Below, one piece after another: positions 3,283 to 18,512 of a DNA stretch of 18,955 nt. Each line of letters opens with the position of its first letter. Within the stretch, counting starts at the first letter, position 1. The position numbers were made by a program, and so were the translations under genes. A model generated the notes under the pieces. The model did no database searches. It saw only the letters and a program-made list of their open reading frames with translations, and had not been told where the DNA came from. The stretch lies in NCBI GenBank assembly GCA_030620115.1, contig JAUXFG010000071.1:1-18955 (forward strand), in the 5' to 3' direction. The stretch is from Candidatus Fermentibacterota bacterium. GTDB taxonomy: Bacteria; JAFGKV01.

Positions 3283-5925
3283 ATGAGAGCTGTTTCGATC
3301 TTTGCCACAATCGTACTCCTTCTAACTGCCGTTCTTCCCGGGGAAGCTCATCGGCTGCTATTGACTACCCACCAGTTCGATCCCCTTCATGGGGAGCCTT
3401 CCCTTCCCACGGAACTCAGAGCCATCGCCCCAAGCCCTGGCTCTGCCGGGTACTATCTCATCCAATTGGACAGGCCGGTTTTCGATTCTCAAAAGGACGA
3501 GCTGAATCAGGGTGGAGTGGAAATTCTGAGCTACATACCGGAAAATGCCTTCCTGGTTAGGATGGCGCCCGAGATCCTATCAACGGTCGAGGCCCTCCCG
3601 TATGTGTCTTGGGTCGGAATGTACCATCCTGCCTACAAGTTGGACCCTGCCATCGGAACTCATGAATTCAAGTTGCCCGAGCGAAGAGAAGATCCTTGGC
3701 TGCGGTTGGTCGTCTATGTTCACCACCCCGAGAACCCGAATCTCGTCGCAGAATCCGTCATTTCATTGGGCGGCGAGATTCTGGATGTCGTCGCAAGCGC
3801 CCATCCTCGTCTTATCGCGAGAATACCTCCTGAAATAGTCCAGGACATCGCTAGGCTGGAAACGGTGCTCTACCTTCAAGAACAGGGAGAGTACTTCCTC
3901 CATAACAATACTACTAGATGGGTGGTGCAAACCAACCAAACTGGAAATACGGCTATCTGGAATCACGGACTTCATGGAGAGAATCAGCTGGTAGCTGAGA
4001 TGGATTCAGGAGTTGATTATCAGAGCTGTTTCTTCCGCGACACAAGCAACCCCATAGGTTCCAGCCACCGCAAGATCCAGAGCTACACCACGTATGGTGA
4101 TGGGGCTGCATACGACGGTTGTGCCGATGGTCACGGATCCCATGTTGCGGGAACTCTACTCGGCAACGATTATACCGCGACCCTATCAGCCTACAATGGC
4201 ATAGCGTATAATGCGCGTCTGATCATGCAGGACATCGGCAAAGATGATTGGTTTTCGTGCACGTTTGGGGCAATCTATCCACCCTCCGCTCTAACCAGCG
4301 CCTTCCAGGATGCCTACAACGGGTGCGCGCGTATCCATACGAATAGTTGGGGAGGGCAGGATAATGAGTACGATTCCTATGCAGAGGACATCGACGATTT
4401 TATGTGGAATAACCCCGAATTCCTGGTTCATTTTGCGATGGGCAATGCGGGCCCGAACTCGGGAACGATAGGTTACCCCGCAACGGCCAAGAACTGCGTC
4501 AGCGTGGGCGGTACACAGCAGGCCGCTACACAAGACAATATGTACAACAGCAGTAGCCGAGGCCCGACCTACGACGATAGACAAAAACCTACTGTCTGCG
4601 CGCCGGCGGACGGGGAGAACGGAGGACCTCCCGATATCTGGTCGGTTGATAACGATGCCAGTTCCAGCCCGACCTGTGCCGTCGTCGGGAGCGGCTGGAA
4701 CGGAACAAGCATGGCCACACCTGCTGTCGCAGGATGTGCAGCTCTCGTAAGGCAGTACTTCATGGAGGGCTTTTACCCCACCGGGTCTGCGGTTCCTGCC
4801 GATGGTTTTACTCCATCGGCTGCCCTGCTGAAGTCCGTGCTGGTGGCCAGCGGCGTGGACATGTCAGGCGCGTCGGGCTATCCGAATGACAATGAGGGTT
4901 GGGGAAGGGTCCTCTTGGAGAATGCCCTGTATTTCGTCGGCGATACTCGCGGTCTTGATCTCAGAGACGAGACTGCGGGTATCACAACGGGCAATACCGA
5001 TTCCTACCAGTTCAGCATCGACAGCAGCCACCCTGCAAGGTTCGTGCTCGTCTGGACCGATCCTTCAAAATCACCCCCCGCAAATCCGGCATTGGTGAAC
5101 AATCTCAACCTCCGAGTGACAGAGCCAGGTGGGGGAACAAGTTACTGGGGCAACAACTTCAGCGGTGGAGAGTCTGCTACCGGTGGAAGTGCGGATGGAT
5201 TGAACGTGGTCGAAGTAGTCCACCGCAATAGCCCGACCGCGGGCAATTGGACGCTCGAGGTGATCGGCCAGAACGTCCCGACGGGACCCCAACCGTATGC
5301 TGTCGCTGTCATAGGCGGTGGTCTCTTTATCCCCGTGAACCTGGAGTCATTCGGCGCGGTATATCGTCCGGACCAGGGCGGTGTTCTCGTGGATTGGTCA
5401 ACGGCCAGTGAGCAGGACAATCTCGGGTTTTTCGTGTTCAGGGCGAATGCATTGGGAGCAGTGTACGATCAGGTGAACGATGTCATGATACCGGGCGCCG
5501 GAACAACCGCCGCCTGCAGCCAATACAGTTATCTCGACAGCCGCGTGGATGCCGGGATCCACTACTACAAGCTGCAGCAGGTTGATAGCGATGGCACAAT
5601 CAAAACATACGGCCCGGTGAGTGTTTCGGTGAGTATTCCAATCCCCGACAGGTTCTCATTGGGTCCGGCAGTCCCGAATCCCTTCAACGAGACGGTAGAG
5701 CTTAGCTACTCCATCCCTCAGCGAACTCGAGTACGCATCGCTCTCTACGACGTGCAGGGTAGAATGGTTAGGCTCCTCGTGGATGGAGAGCAAGATCCGG
5801 CACAGCACAAAACCATTTGGGACGGCTGCGATGCTGACGGCAACAAAATGAGCCCAGGCCAGTATCTGTATCGCATGGAGACGAAACGGTTCGTAGAGAC
5901 GAGGAAAGTGATTCTGTTCAGGTAG
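3283..5925 (+). CDS. Secreted S8 subtilisin-like serine protease with FlgD-like C-terminal domain
   Basis: The 880-aa protein starts with a signal peptide (residues 1-22, hydrophobic AVSIFATIVLLLTAVLP). Residues 55-205 form two similar prodomain-like units (around QLDRPVFDS and VVYVHHPEN). The subtilase domain, about 225-555, shows the full triad: Asp241 in EMDSGVD, His284 in GHGSHVAG, Ser476 in GTSMATPAVAG, with the oxyanion Asn388 in MGNAGPNSG. A beta-sandwich (about 560-680) of the kind that follows S8 domains, a second beta domain (685-785) containing DWSTASEQDNLGFFVFR, and a FlgD-Ig-like C-terminus (795-880: NPFNETVELSYSIP, LYDVQGRMVR, GQYLYRM) follow. The last domain resembles type IX-style sorting or surface-anchoring domains. 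GGAGG lies 5 nt before the ATG. It likely acts outside the cell on proteins or peptides. It is monocistronic and intact. Confidence 0.92.
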   Translation: MRAVSIFATIVLLLTAVLPGEAHRLLLTTHQFDPLHGEPSLPTELRAIAPSPGSAGYYLIQLDRPVFDSQKDELNQGGVEILSYIPENAFLVRMAPEILSTVEALPYVSWVGMYHPAYKLDPAIGTHEFKLPERREDPWLRLVVYVHHPENPNLVAESVISLGGEILDVVASAHPRLIARIPPEIVQDIARLETVLYLQEQGEYFLHNNTTRWVVQTNQTGNTAIWNHGLHGENQLVAEMDSGVDYQSCFFRDTSNPIGSSHRKIQSYTTYGDGAAYDGCADGHGSHVAGTLLGNDYTATLSAYNGIAYNARLIMQDIGKDDWFSCTFGAIYPPSALTSAFQDAYNGCARIHTNSWGGQDNEYDSYAEDIDDFMWNNPEFLVHFAMGNAGPNSGTIGYPATAKNCVSVGGTQQAATQDNMYNSSSRGPTYDDRQKPTVCAPADGENGGPPDIWSVDNDASSSPTCAVVGSGWNGTSMATPAVAGCAALVRQYFMEGFYPTGSAVPADGFTPSAALLKSVLVASGVDMSGASGYPNDNEGWGRVLLENALYFVGDTRGLDLRDETAGITTGNTDSYQFSIDSSHPARFVLVWTDPSKSPPANPALVNNLNLRVTEPGGGTSYWGNNFSGGESATGGSADGLNVVEVVHRNSPTAGNWTLEVIGQNVPTGPQPYAVAVIGGGLFIPVNLESFGAVYRPDQGGVLVDWSTASEQDNLGFFVFRANALGAVYDQVNDVMIPGAGTTAACSQYSYLDSRVDAGIHYYKLQQVDSDGTIKTYGPVSVSVSIPIPDRFSLGPAVPNPFNETVELSYSIPQRTRVRIALYDVQGRMVRLLVDGEQDPAQHKTIWDGCDADGNKMSPGQYLYRMETKRFVETRKVILFR

Positions 5926-6442: not shown

Positions 6443-9400
6443 CTATTCCATGTATTGGGTCTCCATAGAGTAACTGGCTCTTTTTCCGGCCCGCCATTTC
6501 CAAATGAGCCCCACCGCTGCACCGATGAGGGGATAGTATCCTGCTCCATAGATAATGATACCAGTCAATACGATCACCCAGAACAATCGCCGAAAACTGA
6601 ATCCCGGTCCGTAACGCCAGAGCAGCAGGAGAACAACCATCCCCACGATCGCCCCAAGAAATGGGGGTACGGGTGCAGCGCTCCAGGCAGCTATTGTCGG
6701 CGTCCCACCCAAGAGCATCACCCGGCTGAAATCCTTGCGCTCGCCTTCCAGTGGGATGCTCACCTTCACCGGCATGGCGCCCGCTTCGAGACCGGCCCCT
6801 CCTGATGACGCCGGCGCCTGCGCTATATTGAGCTGACGCATGATGGTGAGTTCTTGTTGGTCTTCATTATCCACCGCTGTCTGCGTCATGATTCTCGCCC
6901 TGCCGTGCGTTTTGGTCAGATTGCTTCCAAATCTGAACCAGTTTCGTTTCGAGGGGAGGTAGAGCGTCCAATCCACCACAGAGCAGGGCAGATCGAGCTC
7001 CGGCCCGGAAAGCTCCATCTTTCCCATTGGCGGGAGAGCCCCATGCTCTTCCACCCAGACGAGTTCAAGCTGCAGCGGCGCGAGCTTACCATCCCTCTCT
7101 CGCGACGCAGACACGGGAAGCCGATAACTCCCATCTTCGCTTCTTCCAGGCGCGAATGACTGCCCGTTCACCATATAGCTCCAAATCTGCACGTTCTCAG
7201 GCAACACAACCCTGAGGAATTGCTCTCCACTGTTCCTCAGGGTGAACAGCGCTCTGTGAACTGCCCGGCCGGCAGGAGACACTACGGTGAGAAGATCTTC
7301 ACGATCAACAGAGGCGGTCAGCAAGGCAATGTCTTGCTGTTGCTCCAACTTTAGGCCGACACGATAAGCCGGATCGATGTACTTGAAAGCAAGGAGAATG
7401 GGATTCTCAGCGCGGTTCCATAGAATGGTGGGAAGATCGGCGGGGTCGGTGCGGGTCGCTCCATCTTGACTGGTGGAGGTCACACGCAGGCTGGTCAAAA
7501 CCTGAACTCCCATCTCTCCCCTGAATCGCATAGCGCCACGAAGTGCAGGCTCGAGCACCATCCTGCTCGTCACCGTGTCAGGCAGCTGCAACTCATAGAG
7601 GAGATCCAGGTAGACCCTTCCTTTGGTTTGAGGCTTCAACAGTACGATCAGCATCTGCCCTGTGTCAGCCTCCTCCACAACCCAATCCACCATGGAAGAA
7701 GAGGAGACCTCCAGCAATTCCATACCTGGAGATACATCAAATGCCAGGGTGTCCAAGACGCCTTGGATTATGTCGATAGTAAGGCCGGTGCGCCCCTCGA
7801 TGACACCGGCATCCACTGAGAAAAGCGTCAGCCCTTCGGCCAGGAGCTTCCCTCTTCCTGGCTCACCCTCCCGTGGCCTCACCGCCGATGGAAGCACGAG
7901 CTCCGGCGGAACGAATCTCCAGGTCAACTGCACGCTTCTATTGCCCATGAGTGGCATAGACCCGGTCATTGAATCGCCGTCATCCACAAGATCGATCCGT
8001 TTGCCGTCGACCTTGAGACCCGAAGAACCACGGGGGAGGACCACGGAGAGCTCCATGCCTCCGGTGGGAGGCAGGGGAAGAGAAACCGTCCGGCTGTTGC
8101 CCTGGCTCGAAACAGAAACGTGGTACTTCATGTGGAGCACGTGGCTCTTTTCGCCTTCCACCAATAACCGTGTCCCTTGCCCCTGCGTCCAGAGCGGTGC
8201 GGCTTCGCCGTCCAACAGAATCTCCGCCGGCCTGGCTGAGGATGACAGCAGGTCCATATATCGCCATCCCGGGCCCACACTGACGACCGCCCCTGATCCC
8301 TCGACAAGCGCCTCATCCTCACCCACTGACACGACCAGACTCATTCCGTCGAGGAATGAGGAGGTGACTGCGGGTACAAACCGTGCGGGATCACCAAGCT
8401 TCGCAATAAGATTCCGGACTCGTGAGATAGGCAGAAAGACCTGCTCCTGCCTGGAACCACCGGCGAACAGCCCCTCGAGCTCACTCTGGGGAACCATCCT
8501 GAGCACCTCTCTCGGAGAACTCTGCTCCTCTCCGGAAGAAGAGCCAAAGAACAGCAAAAGCACAAGTAGCGCGGCTCCGGCGCGTCTCTGCCTGGCCACA
8601 CGCAAGAGAATCAATAGCACAACAAGCAAGCCAATCGCCCAGGCATATAGCCGGCCGGGTGAACCTGCCTGCACATACCAGCAGGATATGGTAGGCTTTT
8701 CGTCCTTTTGGAGGATCTGCCTGAACTCGACACGGTTTCCAACCTCAGGCATTCTGACACTGACCGAGGGCTTGCCCACGTTCCGGCGGCCCTGCTTTCG
8801 CAGTTGCTGCAGCAGCTTGCCGCCCTTCCTGTCGTAGGCCGCCTTCTCTTCGTACATGCGATCCAGCTCTGCTTTCTCTCCTTGCTCGAGAAAATCCCTA
8901 ACAGAGGTAGATCCCTCAAGGCGAGATCTGGAATCGCTTGGCGCATGGATGGGCTCATCTGCTTGGTAGAAGATCTCCCCGGCGCTTCCTCCTCGAATGC
9001 GGAGATCGTCGGACGTTTTGGAGATCTCTCCAAGTCCCCGGACGCTCCTTCCTTTGACCAGCTCAACATTCCCTCCCCACCGCACAGGACGAACCTGATC
9101 CGGATAGTTCACTGTCCAGGCGAGCCGGCTGCACGGCAGATCAGGCGAGGGTCCCTGGATCTCGAGCAATCCAAAGAGACCGGGGGCCGCGCGTGGAATC
9201 ATATACGTGAGTTCTACTGGAAAGGCTTGTTCCTGGCCCCTTCCCACCGAACTCGCCAAAGGAAGCAGCACTTTGCCGTTGACCATGCCGGGACGGACGG
9301 GCTGTCGATTGACCCGAACGTGCCAGAGCTCCGCATGGGGCGGCAATATCAACTCGAGAAACTGCTTGGTGGTATTACGCACCACATAAGTACAACTGGT

Positions 9401-10741
9401 GACATGTTCGCCCGTGGGATACACGACCGTGGAAATCCGCGCATCATCAATGACCGCCACCAAGACCGGTACATCGCGGTGCCGAGAAATCCGCAGGGAA
9501 ATGTGCATCTTTGCCGGATCACCTCGGAATGCCTGAAGGATTCTTCCCGCGACGCGCCCTCGAAGCTCATCGGCGAGCTCACGAGCCTGGAGCACCTCCA
9601 CACCTTCCTGGCCCTCCAACTCCACCTCTATGTTGGTGGTAGCCACCACCGCCCATTCTCCCCGCTGACGCTGCGCGCCGCCCACCACAAAGGCGGGGAC
9701 AGACACAATGCCGGAAGGGCCATCCAGATTGACGAGGTACTCGAGGAATAGCTGCTCCTGACCCCTGACAGGAGCGGCAAGATACACAAGCATCTCCGGC
9801 CCCTCCTGTTCCCATGTATCAACGTTCGCACCCCGGACCTCCATGACCTCCACACCCTCGGGGATAGCCACCTTCAGGAGCTGTGCCTGGCCTCCACGAA
9901 CCTCGATTTTGAAATTCACCGAGCCTTTGAGCGCAGCCTCTCCCAATGAAAGCAGGTTCTGGCTGTTCACCTCGATGCGTGCAGTCTTTGCAGACTCGGA
10001 GATCCTCGTTATCCTCTTGATGCGGGGGCGCCACGTGAGACGCATCGCCCCCCCACGGCCTGGGGACACCTCAAGGAGCTGAGCGCCCTCTGTTTCCTTT
10101 ACCATTGCTTTCCCCACCGAGCTCGTGGCGTGCCACTGCCCCGGCGGCAGGCGCAGAGAGAAGCTCATTGCGCCCACAGGTGGAAACAGAAGATCCATGA
10201 ATCCTCCTCCATCCGACGCAGTCACCGGAAGCAGGAGATCCACCTCGATTTCTTTCCTCCCTGGTCCACGGATGAGAGCGCCCCAGTAGCCCTGCATTGG
10301 AACAGGCCCGGTCTGGCGCATCACGCATTCCTGCCCCCCGGGCGAGAGGACCAGCTCCTCCCGAGCAGATACCGCCGAGAGGACCGGTGTCTCTTTGCCG
10401 ACCAAAGGCACATAGAGCCAGCCATCCTCAAGGAGATCCACGACATAGACTGCCTTGAGCGCCGCCGCATCGTCTCTGATCTCACCGGTCACCACGACCG
10501 AAGACACCACCCCGCGTACCGGCGCGTCAGGAAGTCGAACCACCGTGGCCTCCACGGCCTGTTCAAGCGCGTTCAGCTCATGCTCCGGTATGAACACCAA
10601 GGGATCCTTTGTGGCGAGTACGGAATCGGCCTTCCCCGCTGGGTAAGGCAGCAAAAGATGAACCTCCGACGGCGGCTTCTCAGTGGAAGATGCCGCAGCA
10701 ACACACAGGCCAAGAACGAGCAAAGCGGTCACGTAACGCAT
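6443..10741 (-). CDS. Large membrane-anchored beta-rich envelope protein with internal duplication, function unknown
   Basis: The 1432-aa protein starts at ATG 10741 with AAGGAGGT a few nt upstream and a signal peptide (1-19, YVTALLVLGLCVAAASS). It has two homologous halves. Residues about 435-565 (STVVYPTGE, RNTTKQFLELILPP, PDLPCSRLAWTVNYP) align with 1149-1278 (LTVVSPAGR, RNSGEQFLRVVLPE, ELDLPCSVVDWTLYLP). The following segments also match (EFRQILQKDEKPTISCW near 672 with DFSRVMLLGGTPTIAAW near 1338). Each half then reaches a membrane region: about 697-714 in the first; 1360-1376 and 1386-1414 in the second. Between them, 719-735 (RRAGAALLVLLLFFGSS) looks like an ancestral second signal peptide, so a fusion of two tandem paralogues is likely. 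No enzyme motif is visible; the rest is predicted beta-sandwich with repeated LP(P/E) strand ends. Family unrecognised; coding status is secure. Confidence 0.85.
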   Translation of the reverse strand: MRYVTALLVLGLCVAAASSTEKPPSEVHLLLPYPAGKADSVLATKDPLVFIPEHELNALEQAVEATVVRLPDAPVRGVVSSVVVTGEIRDDAAALKAVYVVDLLEDGWLYVPLVGKETPVLSAVSAREELVLSPGGQECVMRQTGPVPMQGYWGALIRGPGRKEIEVDLLLPVTASDGGGFMDLLFPPVGAMSFSLRLPPGQWHATSSVGKAMVKETEGAQLLEVSPGRGGAMRLTWRPRIKRITRISESAKTARIEVNSQNLLSLGEAALKGSVNFKIEVRGGQAQLLKVAIPEGVEVMEVRGANVDTWEQEGPEMLVYLAAPVRGQEQLFLEYLVNLDGPSGIVSVPAFVVGGAQRQRGEWAVVATTNIEVELEGQEGVEVLQARELADELRGRVAGRILQAFRGDPAKMHISLRISRHRDVPVLVAVIDDARISTVVYPTGEHVTSCTYVVRNTTKQFLELILPPHAELWHVRVNRQPVRPGMVNGKVLLPLASSVGRGQEQAFPVELTYMIPRAAPGLFGLLEIQGPSPDLPCSRLAWTVNYPDQVRPVRWGGNVELVKGRSVRGLGEISKTSDDLRIRGGSAGEIFYQADEPIHAPSDSRSRLEGSTSVRDFLEQGEKAELDRMYEEKAAYDRKGGKLLQQLRKQGRRNVGKPSVSVRMPEVGNRVEFRQILQKDEKPTISCWYVQAGSPGRLYAWAIGLLVVLLILLRVARQRRAGAALLVLLLFFGSSSGEEQSSPREVLRMVPQSELEGLFAGGSRQEQVFLPISRVRNLIAKLGDPARFVPAVTSSFLDGMSLVVSVGEDEALVEGSGAVVSVGPGWRYMDLLSSSARPAEILLDGEAAPLWTQGQGTRLLVEGEKSHVLHMKYHVSVSSQGNSRTVSLPLPPTGGMELSVVLPRGSSGLKVDGKRIDLVDDGDSMTGSMPLMGNRSVQLTWRFVPPELVLPSAVRPREGEPGRGKLLAEGLTLFSVDAGVIEGRTGLTIDIIQGVLDTLAFDVSPGMELLEVSSSSMVDWVVEEADTGQMLIVLLKPQTKGRVYLDLLYELQLPDTVTSRMVLEPALRGAMRFRGEMGVQVLTSLRVTSTSQDGATRTDPADLPTILWNRAENPILLAFKYIDPAYRVGLKLEQQQDIALLTASVDREDLLTVVSPAGRAVHRALFTLRNSGEQFLRVVLPENVQIWSYMVNGQSFAPGRSEDGSYRLPVSASRERDGKLAPLQLELVWVEEHGALPPMGKMELSGPELDLPCSVVDWTLYLPSKRNWFRFGSNLTKTHGRARIMTQTAVDNEDQQELTIMRQLNIAQAPASSGGAGLEAGAMPVKVSIPLEGERKDFSRVMLLGGTPTIAAWSAAPVPPFLGAIVGMVVLLLLWRYGPGFSFRRLFWVIVLTGIIIYGAGYYPLIGAAVGLIWKWRAGKRASYSMETQYME

Positions 10742-11296: not shown

Positions 11297-14200
11297 CTAT
11301 CGAATGACCAAAATCTTCCCCTTGGCTGAGATTCTTTCCTCGGTTCGACTGCTGAGGCTGCGCGCTTCTACGCGATAAAGATACACACCATTGGCAACCC
11401 GATCGCCATCACGGTCACGGCATTGCCACTCCAGACCCTCGTGACGCTGAGGAGTCACCTCAATGGGTCCCAGGATATCCACCAACCGGCCGGTGGGCGT
11501 ATAGATGGAGATCGTTACTTCCGCCTCGTGACTGCTTTCCACAAAGAACTCCGTGTGGCCCGGAGCCGGGGAAGGGATGGGAACCACTCGCGCCAGCGAG
11601 AAGTCCCTCGCAAGGATCTCCACCTCGGTGCTGAGCAGGTTGTTGGATTCGTCACGCTCAGGCACGATCTGGGCCGCATCGATCCATGCATAGAGCTCAT
11701 GCCTCCCTGGTTCATCGGGAGTAGCCCAGAATAGCTCTAGCGGTCTCTCCTCACCCGGAGCCAAACCAACATCCGGCGTGACGGTTGCCAGGAGCTCCGC
11801 AGTGTCCGCCTGCCCAGAGCTCGGATTCCCTCTGAACAGGGCTACTGTGTAGAGAGCAGCCAATTGCTCCCCGGTATTGGCAACAGTGAGCGATACTGAT
11901 ACCGTATCACCGGCCAGTGGTCGTGGGGGCATGGCAAGAAGCTCGTCATTCACCGCCATGAGTTCCGCGGGCCACACGCCGACCAAAACTATTGTTGCCG
12001 AGTTATTCTCCGGAAAAGAATCTGCCGGCATGCAGGAAACGCAGGTACGCCAACTGCTGGCGCCATGGGTCGCAGGCCATTCCAGTCTCGTTGACACCGT
12101 ATCCCCAGGTTCAGGTATGGGTAGTTCCCATGCGCCTGCCAACGAATCCCCGGGCATCTTCCAGACCTCTACCCAGGCACTGTCCGGAGCGATCTCACCA
12201 TTGTTGCCCACCTCGAGGACCAGGACGGCGTTTTCACCGACAACCACGGTATCTTCCACGAAGCGCACATTCCGCATCACCAGATCAGGAGGATATTTCG
12301 CACGAACCGTCACCGTGCAGTGCGCCTGGTTGTTCTCCAAGGTGCTCTCCTCTACCGGTGTGGAAACCGTGACCCGGAAATCGAGGACCCCGGCTTCGAC
12401 GAGTACGGAGGTCGTCTCCACCCGTGCCCCACCACCATTGAACTCCGGCAAAAACAGGCTGTCGAAGGGCTCCCAACTGTTCCCTGCATCGGTACTTCGC
12501 CACCACTTGATTGCCACTGTATGTACCGGCGCGTCGCCTTCATTGGTGAGCATAGTAAACAGAGAGACGAGATCCCCTTCCACGGCCTGATCGTGCGACG
12601 CTTCGAGTGTCACCGCCAGGTCGGCAAGGGTCATCACATGGACCTGCAGTTCCGCGGTATTGTTCTCTTCATTGGTCTCCTGGATCTCATCGCCAGTATC
12701 CAGATCAATGGAAATGGAATGATCTCCCGCAGAAGCGCCCCGCTCCCAGAGCCAGGCATGGTTGAAATCCATCTGTGCCCGGCCAGGAAGAGCGACACGC
12801 CATGTCTTGAGCGCCTCTTCATCCAAGACAAGCAAAACCTCAAAGGAGTCCGCATCAATCATCCCGGCATTTCGAATGGAGAAGGCCACCCATGAGCTGT
12901 CTCCCTCCACCGGCTCAACGGGCTCCAGATGAGTCCATGCCACAAGAAGGTCCGCGCCGGTAACCACCTCGACCTCTTGCGCCATGCTATTGTTGGCCTC
13001 GTCCAGTTCAGAAACTTGATCTTCGGTATCCACGGTAAGATAAAAGCGGTGCTGGCCCACCTGATCCATGGTCGACCATGCGCCCGAAAGCGTGTCCGCG
13101 CCTCCTCCTGCCAGCCCCACCACGGTCTTCTCCGCGATGATCGACATGTCCGCACTGTCCGGATGCCCATGCGTCAGCAGAATCCGGAACTCCGATGCCT
13201 CTGCCTCTCCGGTGTTACTCCAGCTCCCTCGCAGATACAGAGAATCACCCTCAGGAGGGCTCGTATTCGAGATCCATAGCGCAACCGCCTCCAACTCCGC
13301 GCGAGTCGCGATGTGTACGGCAGCAGCCGAGCTGTTATTCGTCTCGTCCAGCTCGTCGATCACGCCCCTCCAATCCACCACCGCCCTGATGAGGTGGTCA
13401 CCCGCATCAAGATCCGTAATCGCCCACACGAGCGGGAAAGTGTCAGACTTCCCTCGCTCCAACGCCGGCGCCTGGAAGTCCGCCAGCTCATTGGTGGTGC
13501 CCGAGGACAATGAGCTGTCAGTAAGCTGAATGCCATAGCCCGGCGCCGAACCGGTACCTTGGTTGCTTACCGCCAGCATCACCGTAAGAAGACTATCCAT
13601 CACCTCTGGCGCCGCCGGAATAATCCAGAGTGAGCTATCGGTAAGCGTCAGGTCGGGAATCGGCTCCAGGACCTGGAAACTCGTGGAGCTTGTATTGTCA
13701 TTCCGATATGCCTCTTGTTGGGCCGTATCAGGATTCACCCATGCCCAGATCTCTCTCTGCTCCAACCCATCCGGCACCACCCAATTCCAGCTCACTGTGG
13801 TGCTCTCCTCAATGCCGAGGGCAGGCACTGGAAGGTCCGCCAGGGCATTCCCGCCACTGTCCGGCTCCGCATCGAATAGCCGCACCAGAGTTCCTGGGCC
13901 TGGGTCGATGCCAAGATTCCGCACCACGATGCTGACCTCAACGCTGTCCCCTGCGACAATGGGTTGTGGCCCCACCATAATGTCCCCATCCCGCAACACC
14001 CAGTCCGGCCGTTCAGCCAATGCCAATGGGAGGAGAGGATCGCCTATCCATAGGAAGAGCAGCGGAGAGTGCATGGGATGATCCAAGCTGCCTGAAACCC
14101 TCGGATCGAGTTTGGAGAGCAGAATGGCCACAATGGGTACACGCTCCTGATCACGGAAGAGAACCTCGAGCTGTCTGTCAGCCATGGCAAAATCAACGTT

Positions 14201-16969
14201 TGTATTCCCCCACCCCGTAGATCCGAAGAAACCCATGGATCCGTGAGGTTGCCACTGCCAAATCTCCCCGAATGAGTCGATCTCCGGGTTGGCGAAGCGA
14301 CCGGTATGGCATGTCATGCTGTTTACCATGGGGAGCATGGTCGTATTGGTAAGGTCATTCTCCACATCCGATGCCCAAAACATGGTCTCCCATGTCCAAC
14401 TCGCGCCGTGGCCGATATAGGTTGCGTGCGCAGTCCCCACCTCATTGAAGAGGACTTGGAGCGATTCGTCCTCCGTAGTCTCGAACTCATCTTCGAAGTG
14501 GGTACTCTCCGGCCTGAAGAAGAATACGGATTGATAATGCGCCGGCTCGGGAAGGACCCACCGATCACTGAGTAACCTGCATTGGCTTTCAAAGGCGCTC
14601 CTCGAATCATATCCGTTGGGTTGAAGATACCCACCGGCAATCAAGAGCACGTTCTCCCGCCACGAGCCAGTATCATCGATTGGATATGAAAGCAACTTGT
14701 CCACCACAATCCGGGCGGTGTCGGCGTTCTCCACAGGGATTCTCGAGAGGTAGAGATCAGGGAGCAGACTGTCGGCCCCACCCTGATCGTCCACATTGGC
14801 AAAAAAGTCGTCGATCACCGGATTGCCAAAGGAAGGAACAAAGTTCTTGTGGTCCGGATCCGAATCGGGACTGTTCAGTTTGTAATCCCATGACGCATCA
14901 CCAAAGAGCAGGACGAATGCCGGCGGAGGCTCCCATGTGACGTATGCATCAGCAAGGAAGTCGTGGATCGCCCGTGGATCAAAGACGCCATAGTTGTACT
15001 CATCATAGATATCCTGCACATCGATCACCGTGCTCATCACCGGCCGGCGGTGGAACGTTCTCCCAAGGGCAAGCCTTCTCGCCTCGTCGACGAGATCCTC
15101 GTGCGTGATGATTACAAACTCCGCCCCCTCCATGCCGTCCAGATCCGAAGGGATCTCAGGCACGATCCCTGCCACCACTTCCTTCTCTGCGGCGGACAAG
15201 GCCAGATACTGCGTGCTGTCTCCTGTGCTATCGAGAAAATGAAGCACACAGTCACCATTGCCCTGGTTCTCGACATCAAAGCCTTCCAAGACCTCCATAT
15301 GCGTAAGATCGAGAAGCACAAGATCCGAAGAGCTGAACCCTTCCACCGCATACTGGTATGTGCCGGAACCGTGCTGCTGAGGGCTAAAAAAGGCCAAGGA
15401 GTCTTCCTCTGCGATGTAGGCGCGCCAGTAATCCAACTCAAACCAGTCAGTATATGCCCCATCAAACCAAGTATAATCCGTCTGACCTGTGATATCCACG
15501 CTGAACCAATTCTCGCCGGTGATCAGGGTACTCTCGTTACCCCAGAATTCCGGATTGTAGAGCGGGTCGATACGGGAATCGTAGAATTTCTCGTCAGTGG
15601 CGTACCAGTGAAGATGCGCAACCTGTATATCGTTCAGATAGACAATACCGTAATGATGAGGCGGGCCATGGGGGGAATCGGGATGCGTGTAACCCCTCAA
15701 GCTGATACGCATATGCACGGGATCGGATACGGGGGCAATCCCCTGGAGGGAGAATTGGTAATCCACCTTGCCATCCCCCGGGGTCAACGGTGGCCCCCAG
15801 AACCACTCCTCACCAAACCGGTCGCCGCTGATGGCACCCTCATCGGGCACAAAAGGATTCAAATCTCGCTCGAGATGTACCTGCTGCCTGAAATGGATAG
15901 CGGGCACGCCCTGGCCCTGGCCTTCCACAACCCGTTCCCCCATCCTGAGCCCGGGAATAGTACCCCACGTGAACCAGTAGACGTTCGTCTCGGTATACCT
16001 ACCTCCCACCGGGAGCAGCCGATTCCCTGTATCCTCACGGTACACCGGCCAACCCACAAACTCCAGCGCATCTTCATGGTCGAGGCTCCCATCCTCTGTG
16101 CCCTCCAGCCTGACAGGTACTTCCTCACGCCCATTGAGAAGCTGTATAGTTGTGGGATCGATTTCACCTAATGGCACACCGGCATCCGCGAGCTCCTGCC
16201 CAGAGATCGAATAGAAGCCCGGATGATCCACCAGGATCTTGAACGCATTCTCCGGGGGGTCCCAGTGATCCAAAGGCCTCGAAGCCATCTGAGGGGGGCC
16301 CTGTCGCCATGGCCCTGCCTCCTTATAGTTGAGGAGCAATCGTGAGAGCACGGGCTCCATGGGGTCGAACTCCTCAGGAGCCTTGCGCCGCAGTACGGGA
16401 ACGGCAGGATCGGGTTCCGTGCGGATGATCACCGTGATGTTCTGATCAAGGCAGAGGAGCTCTTGCCGGGGGAAGTACTCGAAGGGGCAAACCTCGATAT
16501 ACGCCACATCAAGGCTGCGGATCCGCCCGCGCGCCACGACTCGCCCACGCGTCTTGGGATACGTGGACGCGGAATATTCTGCCGGCACCTCCAGCAGCCT
16601 CGGCTCCATGCCTTCACCTCTCCGTCGAGGCATGATGGTTTCCAAGGGTGCCGGGGGAGGGGTGACGTCGCGAAAGCTGACCCGGGAAGAAATGTTGACA
16701 TAAACCTGCGGCGTCCTGCCCGGGGGAACCGCCACGGCAAACCGATATACGGGGAGCATCGGCTCCCCCGGTTCCGCAAAAGACTCGGCGCCTGGGAGCT
16801 TCACCGCGGTGTAGTTTGTGCCGCGGCGTATCACCTCTTCCCAGGTTGGCTCCATGCTCACCAAGGAGACCACGGTCTCTTGTTCATTGCTCCGAACCAG
16901 AACCGGTTTCCCCTCCATGTCAGCACTGCTCCCCAAGAGCAAGGCAATAGCAATCCAATTAGGTAGCAT
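11297..16969 (-). CDS. Gingipain-like C25 cysteine peptidase with seven CARDB modules and FlgD-like C-terminus
   Basis: With the start at 16969 the protein has 1890 aa. The start is fixed by the TGATG overlap with the upstream glycosyltransferase stop, AAGGAGA 5-6 nt before it, and a signal peptide beginning MLPNWIAIALLLGSS; a longer frame to 17041 would run inside the neighbour. Residues about 25-610 are beta-rich pro/N-terminal domains. The C25 peptidase domain (about 617-981) shows the catalytic His854 in TYIGHGAS and Cys887 in SMTCHTGRF. Seven CARDB adhesion-type beta modules (about 989-1786) follow, most ending in a (D/E)E(T/A/E/S)NN-like motif. The last 104 residues are a FlgD-Ig-like domain (SIYTPTGRLVD, NGVYLYRVEAR, KGKILVIR) like that of the subtilase. 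Expected role: extracellular, probably surface-displayed proteolysis. No secretion machinery lies in the window. It is intact and very long for C25. Confidence 0.9.
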   Translation of the reverse strand: MLPNWIAIALLLGSSADMEGKPVLVRSNEQETVVSLVSMEPTWEEVIRRGTNYTAVKLPGAESFAEPGEPMLPVYRFAVAVPPGRTPQVYVNISSRVSFRDVTPPPAPLETIMPRRRGEGMEPRLLEVPAEYSASTYPKTRGRVVARGRIRSLDVAYIEVCPFEYFPRQELLCLDQNITVIIRTEPDPAVPVLRRKAPEEFDPMEPVLSRLLLNYKEAGPWRQGPPQMASRPLDHWDPPENAFKILVDHPGFYSISGQELADAGVPLGEIDPTTIQLLNGREEVPVRLEGTEDGSLDHEDALEFVGWPVYREDTGNRLLPVGGRYTETNVYWFTWGTIPGLRMGERVVEGQGQGVPAIHFRQQVHLERDLNPFVPDEGAISGDRFGEEWFWGPPLTPGDGKVDYQFSLQGIAPVSDPVHMRISLRGYTHPDSPHGPPHHYGIVYLNDIQVAHLHWYATDEKFYDSRIDPLYNPEFWGNESTLITGENWFSVDITGQTDYTWFDGAYTDWFELDYWRAYIAEEDSLAFFSPQQHGSGTYQYAVEGFSSSDLVLLDLTHMEVLEGFDVENQGNGDCVLHFLDSTGDSTQYLALSAAEKEVVAGIVPEIPSDLDGMEGAEFVIITHEDLVDEARRLALGRTFHRRPVMSTVIDVQDIYDEYNYGVFDPRAIHDFLADAYVTWEPPPAFVLLFGDASWDYKLNSPDSDPDHKNFVPSFGNPVIDDFFANVDDQGGADSLLPDLYLSRIPVENADTARIVVDKLLSYPIDDTGSWRENVLLIAGGYLQPNGYDSRSAFESQCRLLSDRWVLPEPAHYQSVFFFRPESTHFEDEFETTEDESLQVLFNEVGTAHATYIGHGASWTWETMFWASDVENDLTNTTMLPMVNSMTCHTGRFANPEIDSFGEIWQWQPHGSMGFFGSTGWGNTNVDFAMADRQLEVLFRDQERVPIVAILLSKLDPRVSGSLDHPMHSPLLFLWIGDPLLPLALAERPDWVLRDGDIMVGPQPIVAGDSVEVSIVVRNLGIDPGPGTLVRLFDAEPDSGGNALADLPVPALGIEESTTVSWNWVVPDGLEQREIWAWVNPDTAQQEAYRNDNTSSTSFQVLEPIPDLTLTDSSLWIIPAAPEVMDSLLTVMLAVSNQGTGSAPGYGIQLTDSSLSSGTTNELADFQAPALERGKSDTFPLVWAITDLDAGDHLIRAVVDWRGVIDELDETNNSSAAAVHIATRAELEAVALWISNTSPPEGDSLYLRGSWSNTGEAEASEFRILLTHGHPDSADMSIIAEKTVVGLAGGGADTLSGAWSTMDQVGQHRFYLTVDTEDQVSELDEANNSMAQEVEVVTGADLLVAWTHLEPVEPVEGDSSWVAFSIRNAGMIDADSFEVLLVLDEEALKTWRVALPGRAQMDFNHAWLWERGASAGDHSISIDLDTGDEIQETNEENNTAELQVHVMTLADLAVTLEASHDQAVEGDLVSLFTMLTNEGDAPVHTVAIKWWRSTDAGNSWEPFDSLFLPEFNGGGARVETTSVLVEAGVLDFRVTVSTPVEESTLENNQAHCTVTVRAKYPPDLVMRNVRFVEDTVVVGENAVLVLEVGNNGEIAPDSAWVEVWKMPGDSLAGAWELPIPEPGDTVSTRLEWPATHGASSWRTCVSCMPADSFPENNSATIVLVGVWPAELMAVNDELLAMPPRPLAGDTVSVSLTVANTGEQLAALYTVALFRGNPSSGQADTAELLATVTPDVGLAPGEERPLELFWATPDEPGRHELYAWIDAAQIVPERDESNNLLSTEVEILARDFSLARVVPIPSPAPGHTEFFVESSHEAEVTISIYTPTGRLVDILGPIEVTPQRHEGLEWQCRDRDGDRVANGVYLYRVEARSLSSRTEERISAKGKILVIR

Positions 16970-16983
16970 CACGTTCTCCTTCC
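16967..16983 (-). promoter_or_regulatory. TGATG translational coupling site with internal ribosome-binding site
   Basis: On the minus strand AAGGAGAACGTGATG contains the Shine-Dalgarno sequence of the C25 gene inside the glycosyltransferase reading frame, with the stop TGA (16971-16969) sharing its A with the start ATG (16969-16967). Ribosomes ending on the glycosyltransferase can restart on the peptidase. Confidence 0.7.
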
Positions 16984-18084
16984 CCGCCATAGAAGGCGCA
17001 GCATACATTGGGCGCCTTTCCAGTAGAGCCTCAGCCCCCATTCGCCCGCTCTGCGCACAAGCAGAGCGAACCCTGTCTCTGCCATGCCGGGTACCGGCGT
17101 GAGAGGACGAGCGGTGAGGAGCTCGGTGTCATGAATGGTGCGTAATGTCTGGATCCTCTTCCTTTCTTCAGCTACCCATCTCCTATGGAGCCAGTTCCAC
17201 TGCAGCCCCCTCAGGAACTCCCTCCCATTCCTTGACACGATCATGGCAATCATCCAGGTGAGCTCGAACAGGACGAGAACGGGAGCGAGCACAAGAAGCG
17301 ATACCGCCTCGTAGGTACGGAGGAGCACAAGCCATCGATTGCGGGTAACCAGGAAAGCTCTTCGGCTGGGGTAGCGCTGCCTGACACGAACCGCAAGATC
17401 CGGTGTGCCGGAGTAGTGCCATACCACGGATTTCGGGTGAAAGAGGATCCGCCAACCCCGGGATCGAAACCGCAGACACATATCCAGTTCATCCTCGTAG
17501 ATGAACAGCTCCTCTTCCAGCAGCCCCACATCGTCCAACGCCGCCCTCCGCAAGAGGACCGAGGATCCCACGTATACCCCCACTTCAGCGGGGACAAGCC
17601 CTCCTTCTACCTCATGAAGTGGCCTCAGATAATGCCAATTGGCAATATGCCCGATGAAATGGGCATCAGAACCCGCATAATGGACCAGATGGGGATCACC
17701 GGGCAGGATCACCAGCGAAGAGCATGCAGCCGCCCGCGGATCTTGGTTCAGTGCCTCGTGCAGAAGGCGCAGCCAGTCAGGTTCAACCTTGGTATCGTTA
17801 TTCAGCAGCGCCACGAAAGGGCTGCTTGATGCCGTGATTCCCAGATTGTTCCCGCCACAGTAGCCAAGATTCGCCCCAGCCTCGATCACGCGCACCCAGG
17901 AGTGATGCTCTCTGACCCAATCCACGCTGCCGTCAGAAGAGCAGTTATCTACAAGAATTATCTCTCGAGCGGGCGGGTCCAGTGCCTTCAGACTGGTCAA
18001 ACAATTTTCAAGGAACGACTTCCCATTGTAGTTCACTACCACGACACTGACAGGCAATGGGCTTCGGCTATTGCTGCTATTCAT
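16969..18084 (-). CDS. GT2 family glycosyltransferase (rhamnosyltransferase-like)
   Basis: The 371-aa protein has the GT2 (GT-A fold) signature set: VVVVNYNG at 14-21, the nucleotide-binding ILVDNCSSDGS at 43-53, NLGYCGGNN at 72-80, the metal-binding LLNNDT at 93-98 (Asp97), and the catalytic-base segment FIYEDELDMCLRFRSRGW at 194-211 (Glu197/Asp198). One strongly hydrophobic segment (about 258-283) and a basic C-terminus suggest membrane association at the inner face. This layout is typical of WbbL-like enzymes that add rhamnose or related sugars to O-antigen or other envelope glycans; donor and acceptor are not readable. The ATG at 18084 lacks a strong Shine-Dalgarno sequence; CATAAT sits about 20 nt upstream as a possible -10. 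Its TGA overlaps the ATG of the C25 peptidase (TGATG), so the two are co-transcribed and coupled. Confidence 0.88.
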   Translation of the reverse strand: MNSSNSRSPLPVSVVVVNYNGKSFLENCLTSLKALDPPAREIILVDNCSSDGSVDWVREHHSWVRVIEAGANLGYCGGNNLGITASSSPFVALLNNDTKVEPDWLRLLHEALNQDPRAAACSSLVILPGDPHLVHYAGSDAHFIGHIANWHYLRPLHEVEGGLVPAEVGVYVGSSVLLRRAALDDVGLLEEELFIYEDELDMCLRFRSRGWRILFHPKSVVWHYSGTPDLAVRVRQRYPSRRAFLVTRNRWLVLLRTYEAVSLLVLAPVLVLFELTWMIAMIVSRNGREFLRGLQWNWLHRRWVAEERKRIQTLRTIHDTELLTARPLTPVPGMAETGFALLVRRAGEWGLRLYWKGAQCMLRLLWRGRRT

Positions 18085-18219
18085 CTACGTGATCCCGCCA
18101 GATTATGAGCCGATTCCTGACCTAAGCTCGGGATGCTTCATTTTGCCGCTTTACAGTCTTAGCGTAAATGGAACACTGACTCCGCTGATAGTCCTCCCGT
18201 GTTCCCCACCTCACCCCAA
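18085..18219. other. Intergenic leader of the glycosyltransferase-C25 operon
   Basis: This should hold the operon promoter on the minus strand. CATAAT (18109-18104 region) could be a -10 box but no good -35 is visible 16-18 bp upstream. No gene recognised. Confidence 0.3.
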
Positions 18220-18239
18220 CCCTCTCCTCAAGGAGAGGG
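18220..18239. repeat. CCCTCTCCT palindrome of a common dispersed repeat
   Basis: CCCTCTCCT (18220-18228), CA, AGGAGAGGG (18231-18239) is a perfect 9-bp hairpin preceded by CACCTCACCCCAA. I recognise this combination as an intergenic palindrome widespread in bacteria. It is not followed by a T-run on either strand, so it is listed as a repeat, not as a terminator. Confidence 0.5.
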
Positions 18240-18272
18240 AGCGAAGCCACTGATCTCAGGTCCCTTTGATAC

Positions 18273-18317
18273 TTGAACATTGAACATCGAACATTCAACA
18301 TCCAACGTCGAAGTTGG
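18273..18317. repeat. Degenerate GAACATT/CAACATC tandem repeat, block A
   Basis: Five successive 7-9 bp variants: GAACATT, GAACATC, GAACATT, CAACATC, CAACGTC, followed by GAAGTTGG. An inverted partner block lies at 18449-18512. The block generates spurious open frames with repeated Asn, Val, Arg, Cys and Ser. Confidence 0.55.
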
Positions 18318-18360
18318 GATGAAGATGCCCATCGGACCTTGCCCTCCTCCCCAAGGATCC

Positions 18361-18377
18361 GGATATTGGACATATCC
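18361..18377. repeat. Short palindrome between the two repeat blocks
   Basis: GGATAT, TGGAC, ATATCC forms a perfect 6-bp stem with a 5-nt loop, located between inverted repeat blocks A and B. Confidence 0.3.
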
Positions 18378-18448
18378 AAGAACATTGACCGATGAACGAC
18401 ATCGGGCGGGCCTCGAAGCCTCAACCGATCCTCACTCTCATATTCTTC

Positions 18449-18512
18449 CGTTGGAAGTTCGATGTTGGACGTTCGCTCCCCTTTCCTCATCTTCCCTTCA
18501 ACGTTCGACATC
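18449..18512. repeat. Degenerate repeat, block B (inverted relative to block A)
   Basis: GTTGGAAGTTCGATGTTGG, then ACGTTCG, and after a pyrimidine-rich gap TTCAACGTTCGACATC. The first part resembles the reverse complement of block A, so the two could form a long imperfect stem of about 200 nt span. Confidence 0.45.

Follow-up and report, generated by a model that had tools for sequence, protein, structure and literature searches.

A fused tandem duplicate from an undescribed family of bacterial and archaeal membrane proteins, with predicted folds related to ribophorin I and a probable second export signal at its joint

Ribophorin I/Ost1 works with STT3 in the oligosaccharyltransferase (OST), and it is the closest described system to the protein that we present here. 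Ost1 has two beta-rich luminal domains that resemble each other (PMC7226087), and a cytosolic ribosome-binding domain follows its single transmembrane (TM) helix (PMC11417166). OST1 has been reported only from eukaryotes and from TACK and Asgard archaea (PMC11417166); BLASTp and hidden Markov model searches gave no promising prokaryotic candidates for the non-catalytic OST subunits, the origin of which was left open (PMC4973528). We will focus here on an open reading frame (ORF) of 1432 residues located at 6443-10741 on the minus strand of a DNA stretch of 18,955 nucleotides from a Candidatus Fermentibacterota bacterium (assembly GCA_030620115.1, contig JAUXFG010000071.1), which we term the window. 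Like ribophorin I/Ost1, its product is predicted to have a signal peptide, tandem beta-saddle domains on the outer side and a TM anchor. The family to which it belongs is carried by many bacterial phyla as well as by archaea and has no Pfam or NCBIfam entry, yet its predicted fold is related to that of ribophorin I. This family is undescribed, widespread and of a known kind of fold, and what makes it remarkable is that it has duplicated and fused more than once while keeping a probable export signal in its interior.

The gene is, practically beyond doubt, a fused tandem duplicate, in which a pair of genes of this family has been joined into one. Residues 1-718 match residues 719-1432 in BLASTP with 139 bits (E=2e-38, 25% identity over 653 columns), and the Smith-Waterman score of half against half lies 27 standard deviations above 300 shuffles. 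The local alignment of the halves extends from residue 2, set against about residue 720, through to the segments that precede the TM helices, and it pairs the N-terminal signal peptide with an internal signal-like segment; RRAGAALLVLLLFFGSS starts at residue 719. The initial annotation had aligned residues 435-565 with 1149-1278, together with the pre-membrane segments marked by PTISCW (at 683) and PTIAAW (at 1348). Both pairings hold, and the repeat is larger, since it spans nearly the whole of each half. A single copy of the gene was found in the window genome. Its parts, all on the minus strand, are the following:

6443-10741, minus: whole gene, encoding the 1432-residue fused twin membrane protein (ORF, homology of the halves, fused orthologues in genomes G001 and G002)
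10682-10741, minus: N-terminal signal peptide, residues 1-20 (hydropathy)
10022-10525, minus: half A saddle domain D1, residues 73-240 (AlphaFold2; matches to M1 aminopeptidase N-terminal domains, M1-N, at Z about 12.5)
9464-10021, minus: half A beta domain D2, residues 241-426 (AlphaFold2; together with D1 aligns to yeast Ost1 28-449)
9044-9463, minus: half A domain D3 with the RNxxxQFL..LP signature, residues 427-566 (AlphaFold2; conserved columns)
8777-9043, minus: half A low-confidence linker and helix, residues 567-655 (predicted local distance difference test, pLDDT, mostly below 60)
8663-8776, minus: half A juxtamembrane strands including PTISCW, residues 656-693 (alignment and AlphaFold2)
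8591-8662, minus: half A TM helix, residues 694-717 (hydropathy 2.6; AlphaFold2 helix 696-717)
8528-8602, minus: internal signal-like segment with basic loop RVARQRR, h-region and SSSG c-region, residues 714-738 (aligns to the N-terminal signal peptide; kept in all fused relatives)
8597-8599, minus: GTG codon (V715), probably what is left of the second gene's start codon (ATG at the same place in G001 and G002)
7898-8371, minus: half B saddle domain D1, residues 791-948 (AlphaFold2, pLDDT above 90; M1-N matches at Z about 13.5)
7328-7867, minus: half B beta domain D2, residues 959-1138 (AlphaFold2)
6908-7327, minus: half B domain D3, residues 1139-1278 (AlphaFold2; Ost1 6c26_1 at Z 13.7)
6668-6781, minus: half B juxtamembrane strands with conserved G..P..G..F, residues 1321-1358 (AlphaFold2 and conserved columns)
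6449-6664, minus: half B C-terminal membrane helices, three predicted, residues 1360-1431 (AlphaFold2 helices; hydropathy)

Identity between the halves is 18% in D1, 22% in D2 and 32% in both D3 and the juxtamembrane segment. AlphaFold2 was run on each half with an alignment of the family of 55 rows, and the mean pLDDT was 81.5 for half B and 79.9 for half A, most of the ectodomains exceeding 90. According to these models, each half would be made of three beta domains, at about 73-230, 241-420 and 421-640 of the half, and would end in membrane helices, of which one is predicted in half A and three in half B. This agrees with the two large beta domains and membrane segments that had been proposed from the sequence. 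The secondary-structure strings of the two models agree at 89% of 638 aligned positions, while circular shifts give 40.5 +/- 3.4%, with a maximum of 49%, and we hold it very probable that both halves adopt a common saddle fold. In particular, D1 matches the saddle-shaped N-terminal domain of M1 aminopeptidases over about 150 residues, and so does D3 (VIA-align, Z 12-13.7). Weak profile similarity was also found between D1 and D3 (P=2e-4, for a single comparison) and between D1 and D2 (P=7e-4), so that the whole protein likely contains six related domains, although this is not proven.

The relatives of the gene include fused, paired and single forms. The fused form was found in all three genomes covered from the window's phylum (window, G001 and G002) at about 45% identity; two of the three have public records, under the labels Candidatus Eisenbacteria (L130) and Candidatus Fermentibacteria (L131). 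In another phylum, G037 has two genes side by side (773 and 743 residues) that overlap by 4 bp; G065 has the same arrangement with the same overlap, and G060 and G062 show adjacent or repeated matches. Single genes occur in many lineages. The tandem duplication and fusion that had been proposed are supported by these adjacent-gene and single-gene relatives. As to the loss of an intervening stop, proposed with them, it would not by itself join pairs that overlap by 4 bp, and a small indel or frameshift would also be needed. Scanning contigs with the window protein alone gave no relatives; the scan of GTDB contigs with the family alignment gave 53 loci, and the family is present in 29 of 386 sampled genomes. 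The bacterial loci include Gemmatimonadota, Latescibacterota, Zixibacteria, KSB1, Delongbacteria, Aminicenantes, WOR-3 and Elusimicrobia, and the archaeal ones include Altiarchaeota and Diapherotrites. Many of the 53 loci hold a single unfused copy, Altiarchaeota being among the single-copy lineages, and others hold tandem pairs. The family signature is [VI]RNxxxQFLxxxLP, and Q456, P545, P612 and F620 (half-B numbering) are invariant in the 55 members. As had been stated from the sequence, the family is unrecognised: neither the window protein nor its relatives gave a credible match to Pfam, NCBIfam or PDB sequences. Its occurrence is patchy in some phyla (two of nine genomes in that of G272), which indicates that the gene is accessory there rather than housekeeping.

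Pairs arose repeatedly in this family and fused independently in at least three lineages, namely the window's phylum, G272/G690 and G140. The G272/G690 fusions measure about 1775 residues and are 61% identical in the aligned stretch, and the G140 fusion measures about 1470. The trees usually join the two genes of a lineage as sisters. Within one well-supported clade, separate duplications lie behind the G272 fusion (88), the Elusimicrobia pair L113 (98) and the WOR-3/Stahlbacteria pairs (96), and single-copy relatives stand between them. Grouping L113 with the WOR-3 set was marginally rejected in the approximately unbiased (AU) test (p=0.037). Two results pull the other way, as a duplication common to the phyla of the window and of G037 was not rejected (AU, p=0.125) and the two halves of the window protein meet by long branches; moreover, gene conversion could mimic separate duplications. 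The family offers a natural series, arisen several times, in which a single gene gives way to an overlapping pair and the pair to one fused gene. As for a single ancient duplication at the origin of all pairs, with all first genes in one clade, it was rejected (AU p=8e-11).

Some members depart from this general picture. A divergent archaeal branch (L145-L158) joins the family by profile at 98.5-99.5%; its ORFs of about 550-680 residues match D3 and the juxtamembrane segment, and many of them carry extra membrane helices between the two. Giant versions of 1100-2800 residues, usually in tandem, are found in L072, L073, L075, L076 and L078, and the domain profile matches them at several additional internal places. 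Finally, genes of the family are split over several frames in L132 (G062) and in L117 (a Desulfobacterales record), which may be frameshifts or pseudogenes.

The joint between the halves deserves particular attention. All six fused proteins keep an n-h-c pattern there, that is, a basic stretch and a hydrophobic core followed by small residues. It reads RVARQRR-AGAALLVLLLFFGSSSG in the window, MRWRRRHVIAALVLIALDATAA in G002, ...KSKTRKGAKTFILFLLALSGFVF...THAQ in G690 and ...LPLVFLFLMLMGGGSLALAQ in G140, and the persistence of the pattern while the letters diverged suggests a constraint. Topology provides a possible reason for it. The N-terminal signal peptide would export the chain, half A would stay outside and its TM helix would stop the transfer; since the chain would be cytoplasmic after this helix, the export of half B needs a new start-transfer signal. 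The short basic loop and the signal-like segment would then restart export, and half B would be displayed outside, anchored by its C-terminal helices. The initial annotation had described a fossil signal peptide at 719-735. The segment is indeed signal-like, as its alignment to the N-terminal one indicates, but its retention in all six fused proteins speaks for a second export signal that probably still works rather than for a fossil, and we are reasonably confident, from the conserved pattern, that it acts in export. It may either be cut by signal peptidase, giving two proteins in a 1:1 ratio, or be kept as a hairpin. A start codon lies at the same place of the junction in the three genomes of the phylum (GTG in the window, ATG in G001, ATG in G002), and it is probably the former start codon of the second gene. 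With this family, bacteria offer a test case for a fused membrane protein that has retained a signal peptide in its interior. Among the papers that we searched, none described a bacterial fusion with such an internal signal peptide. FbcH (cytochrome b/c1) of Bradyrhizobium is a bacterial fusion that signal peptidase cuts at an internal signal; we mention it as a lead and as a works-like model, for its export signal lies internally, where two membrane proteins are fused, but these are unrelated to the window family.

Could the fused gene be something less than a working fusion? A sequencing error joining two genes is conceivable in draft genomes such as these, but it is hardly credible when three separate assemblies show continuous frames with a conserved junction and further lineages have fused independently. 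It is also rather unlikely, if far from absurd, that the gene is a bicistronic relic in which a signal peptidase cut or a restart at the GTG/ATG releases two separate proteins, the fusion itself being neutral. The shared position of the junction start codons is in keeping with this, and so are the c-regions rich in small residues (ATAA/AP in G002, ALAQT in G140) and the 4-bp overlap of the related pairs, which is that of translational coupling. However, the internal start codons of the window, G001 and G002 have no clear ribosome-binding site ahead of them, and the fusion has persisted across about 45% identity in the window's phylum and about 61% in G272/G690.

The same kind of weighing applies to the function of the product. 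With either half, Foldseek places human and yeast ribophorin I/Ost1 first (E 1.6e-8 and 1.6e-10, about 430-530 columns), ahead of the M1-aminopeptidase N-domains, and VIA-align also places Ost1 first for half A (yeast Ost1 28-449 against half A 74-426, Z 13.4). This two-domain match has a TM-score of about 0.2 and a root-mean-square deviation of about 18-20 A (18.4 for half A), reflecting different domain angles. Such ranks would favor a bacterial relative of ribophorin I/Ost1 serving as an accessory subunit of an STT3/PglB protein-glycosylating or similar lipid-linked sugar transferase, but several observations make this improbable. Ost1 works with STT3, and no match to STT3/AglB/PglB was found at E <= 0.001 in the window genome (98% complete); at this threshold, STT3 was unmatched in 12 of the 16 family-bearing genomes searched, the window genome included (11 of the 15 others), which renders such a role unlikely. 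Sequence-profile similarity to ribophorin I was not found either: hhalign gave a probability of 0.5% against archaeal ribophorin I (a shallow alignment of four sequences, one of which was verified against the MK-D1 OST1 cytosolic domain 8whn) and again 0.5% through the divergent archaeal family members, and PF04597 is absent among the matches listed for the 55 members (the best 25 of 80), none being listed for the window protein. With so shallow a ribophorin alignment, a remote common descent may have been missed. In addition, Ost1 has two saddle domains whereas the window family has three per half, and there is no cytosolic C-terminal ribosome-binding domain, the predicted membrane helices reaching residue 1431 of 1432. 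It is likewise doubtful, and we would not press it, that the family is the bacterial and archaeal counterpart of ribophorin I and the source of eukaryotic and Asgard Ost1, and that in bacteria it is a general, membrane-bound client-holding scaffold which would repeatedly have gone from a homodimer through a gene pair to a fused heterodimer whose internal signal peptide works. An M1-related hydrolase or peptidase anchored in the membrane, with saddle domains gating the substrate, is very improbable. The fold of the single domains D1 and D3 is that of the N-terminal saddle domain of M1 aminopeptidases and LTA4H, with the Z scores given above, but the family has no zinc-peptidase catalytic domain, no Pfam peptidase match was obtained, and HExxH is absent from all 55 members.

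The reading that we tentatively put forward, at slightly less than even chances, is that of a non-enzymatic, membrane-bound scaffold or client-binding protein forming a fixed dimer of two triple-saddle arms. Lineages with one copy would form the two-arm unit as a homodimer and those with a pair as a heterodimer, and in fused lineages the arms would be covalently linked. The unit would work as Ost1 serves the OST, though its partner would be another. A two-arm dimer would allow the gene to duplicate and fuse more than once, and the fact that doubling recurred suggests that having two arms is useful. The most conserved domains are D3 and D2, and the conserved columns are mostly G, P, W, N, Q and aromatics, which are structural. 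Several points weigh against this scaffold. The conserved charged residues E332, R354, E368 and E508 (half-B numbering) leave a catalytic role open, no ligand or partner was found for the family, and the predicted TM-score (pTM) of 0.44-0.45 leaves the interdomain arrangement uncertain. Furthermore, no neighbor family is widely shared and adjacent across the 53 loci. The envelope or surface assembly suggested in the initial annotation was likewise not borne out. Among the unshared neighbors are an extracytoplasmic function (ECF) sigma factor upstream of the gene at L058 and a UTP--glucose-1-phosphate uridylyltransferase (galU)-like gene beside the pair of G037.

In the window itself, the fusion gene lies beside a 1914-residue ORF (11297-17041, minus) encoding a C25 (gingipain/PorU-like) peptidase with a propeptide, five CARDB repeats and a FlgD-like tail, which PorU models match below their cut-offs. 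As listed, this ORF overlaps that of a family-2 glycosyltransferase (16969-18084, minus), so it probably begins further downstream than listed. On the other side, an 880-residue S8 subtilase (3283-5925, plus) ends in a FlgD-like, Por-secretion-type C-terminal tail, which suggests a type IX-like secretion in the window lineage, and a sulfotransferase is found further out (1664-2608, minus). Lastly, a 129-residue ORF (18122-18511, minus) has an odd, repetitive wording (RSMFLDMSNIR, LNVRCSMFKYQ) and may be a translated stretch of a dispersed noncoding repeat.

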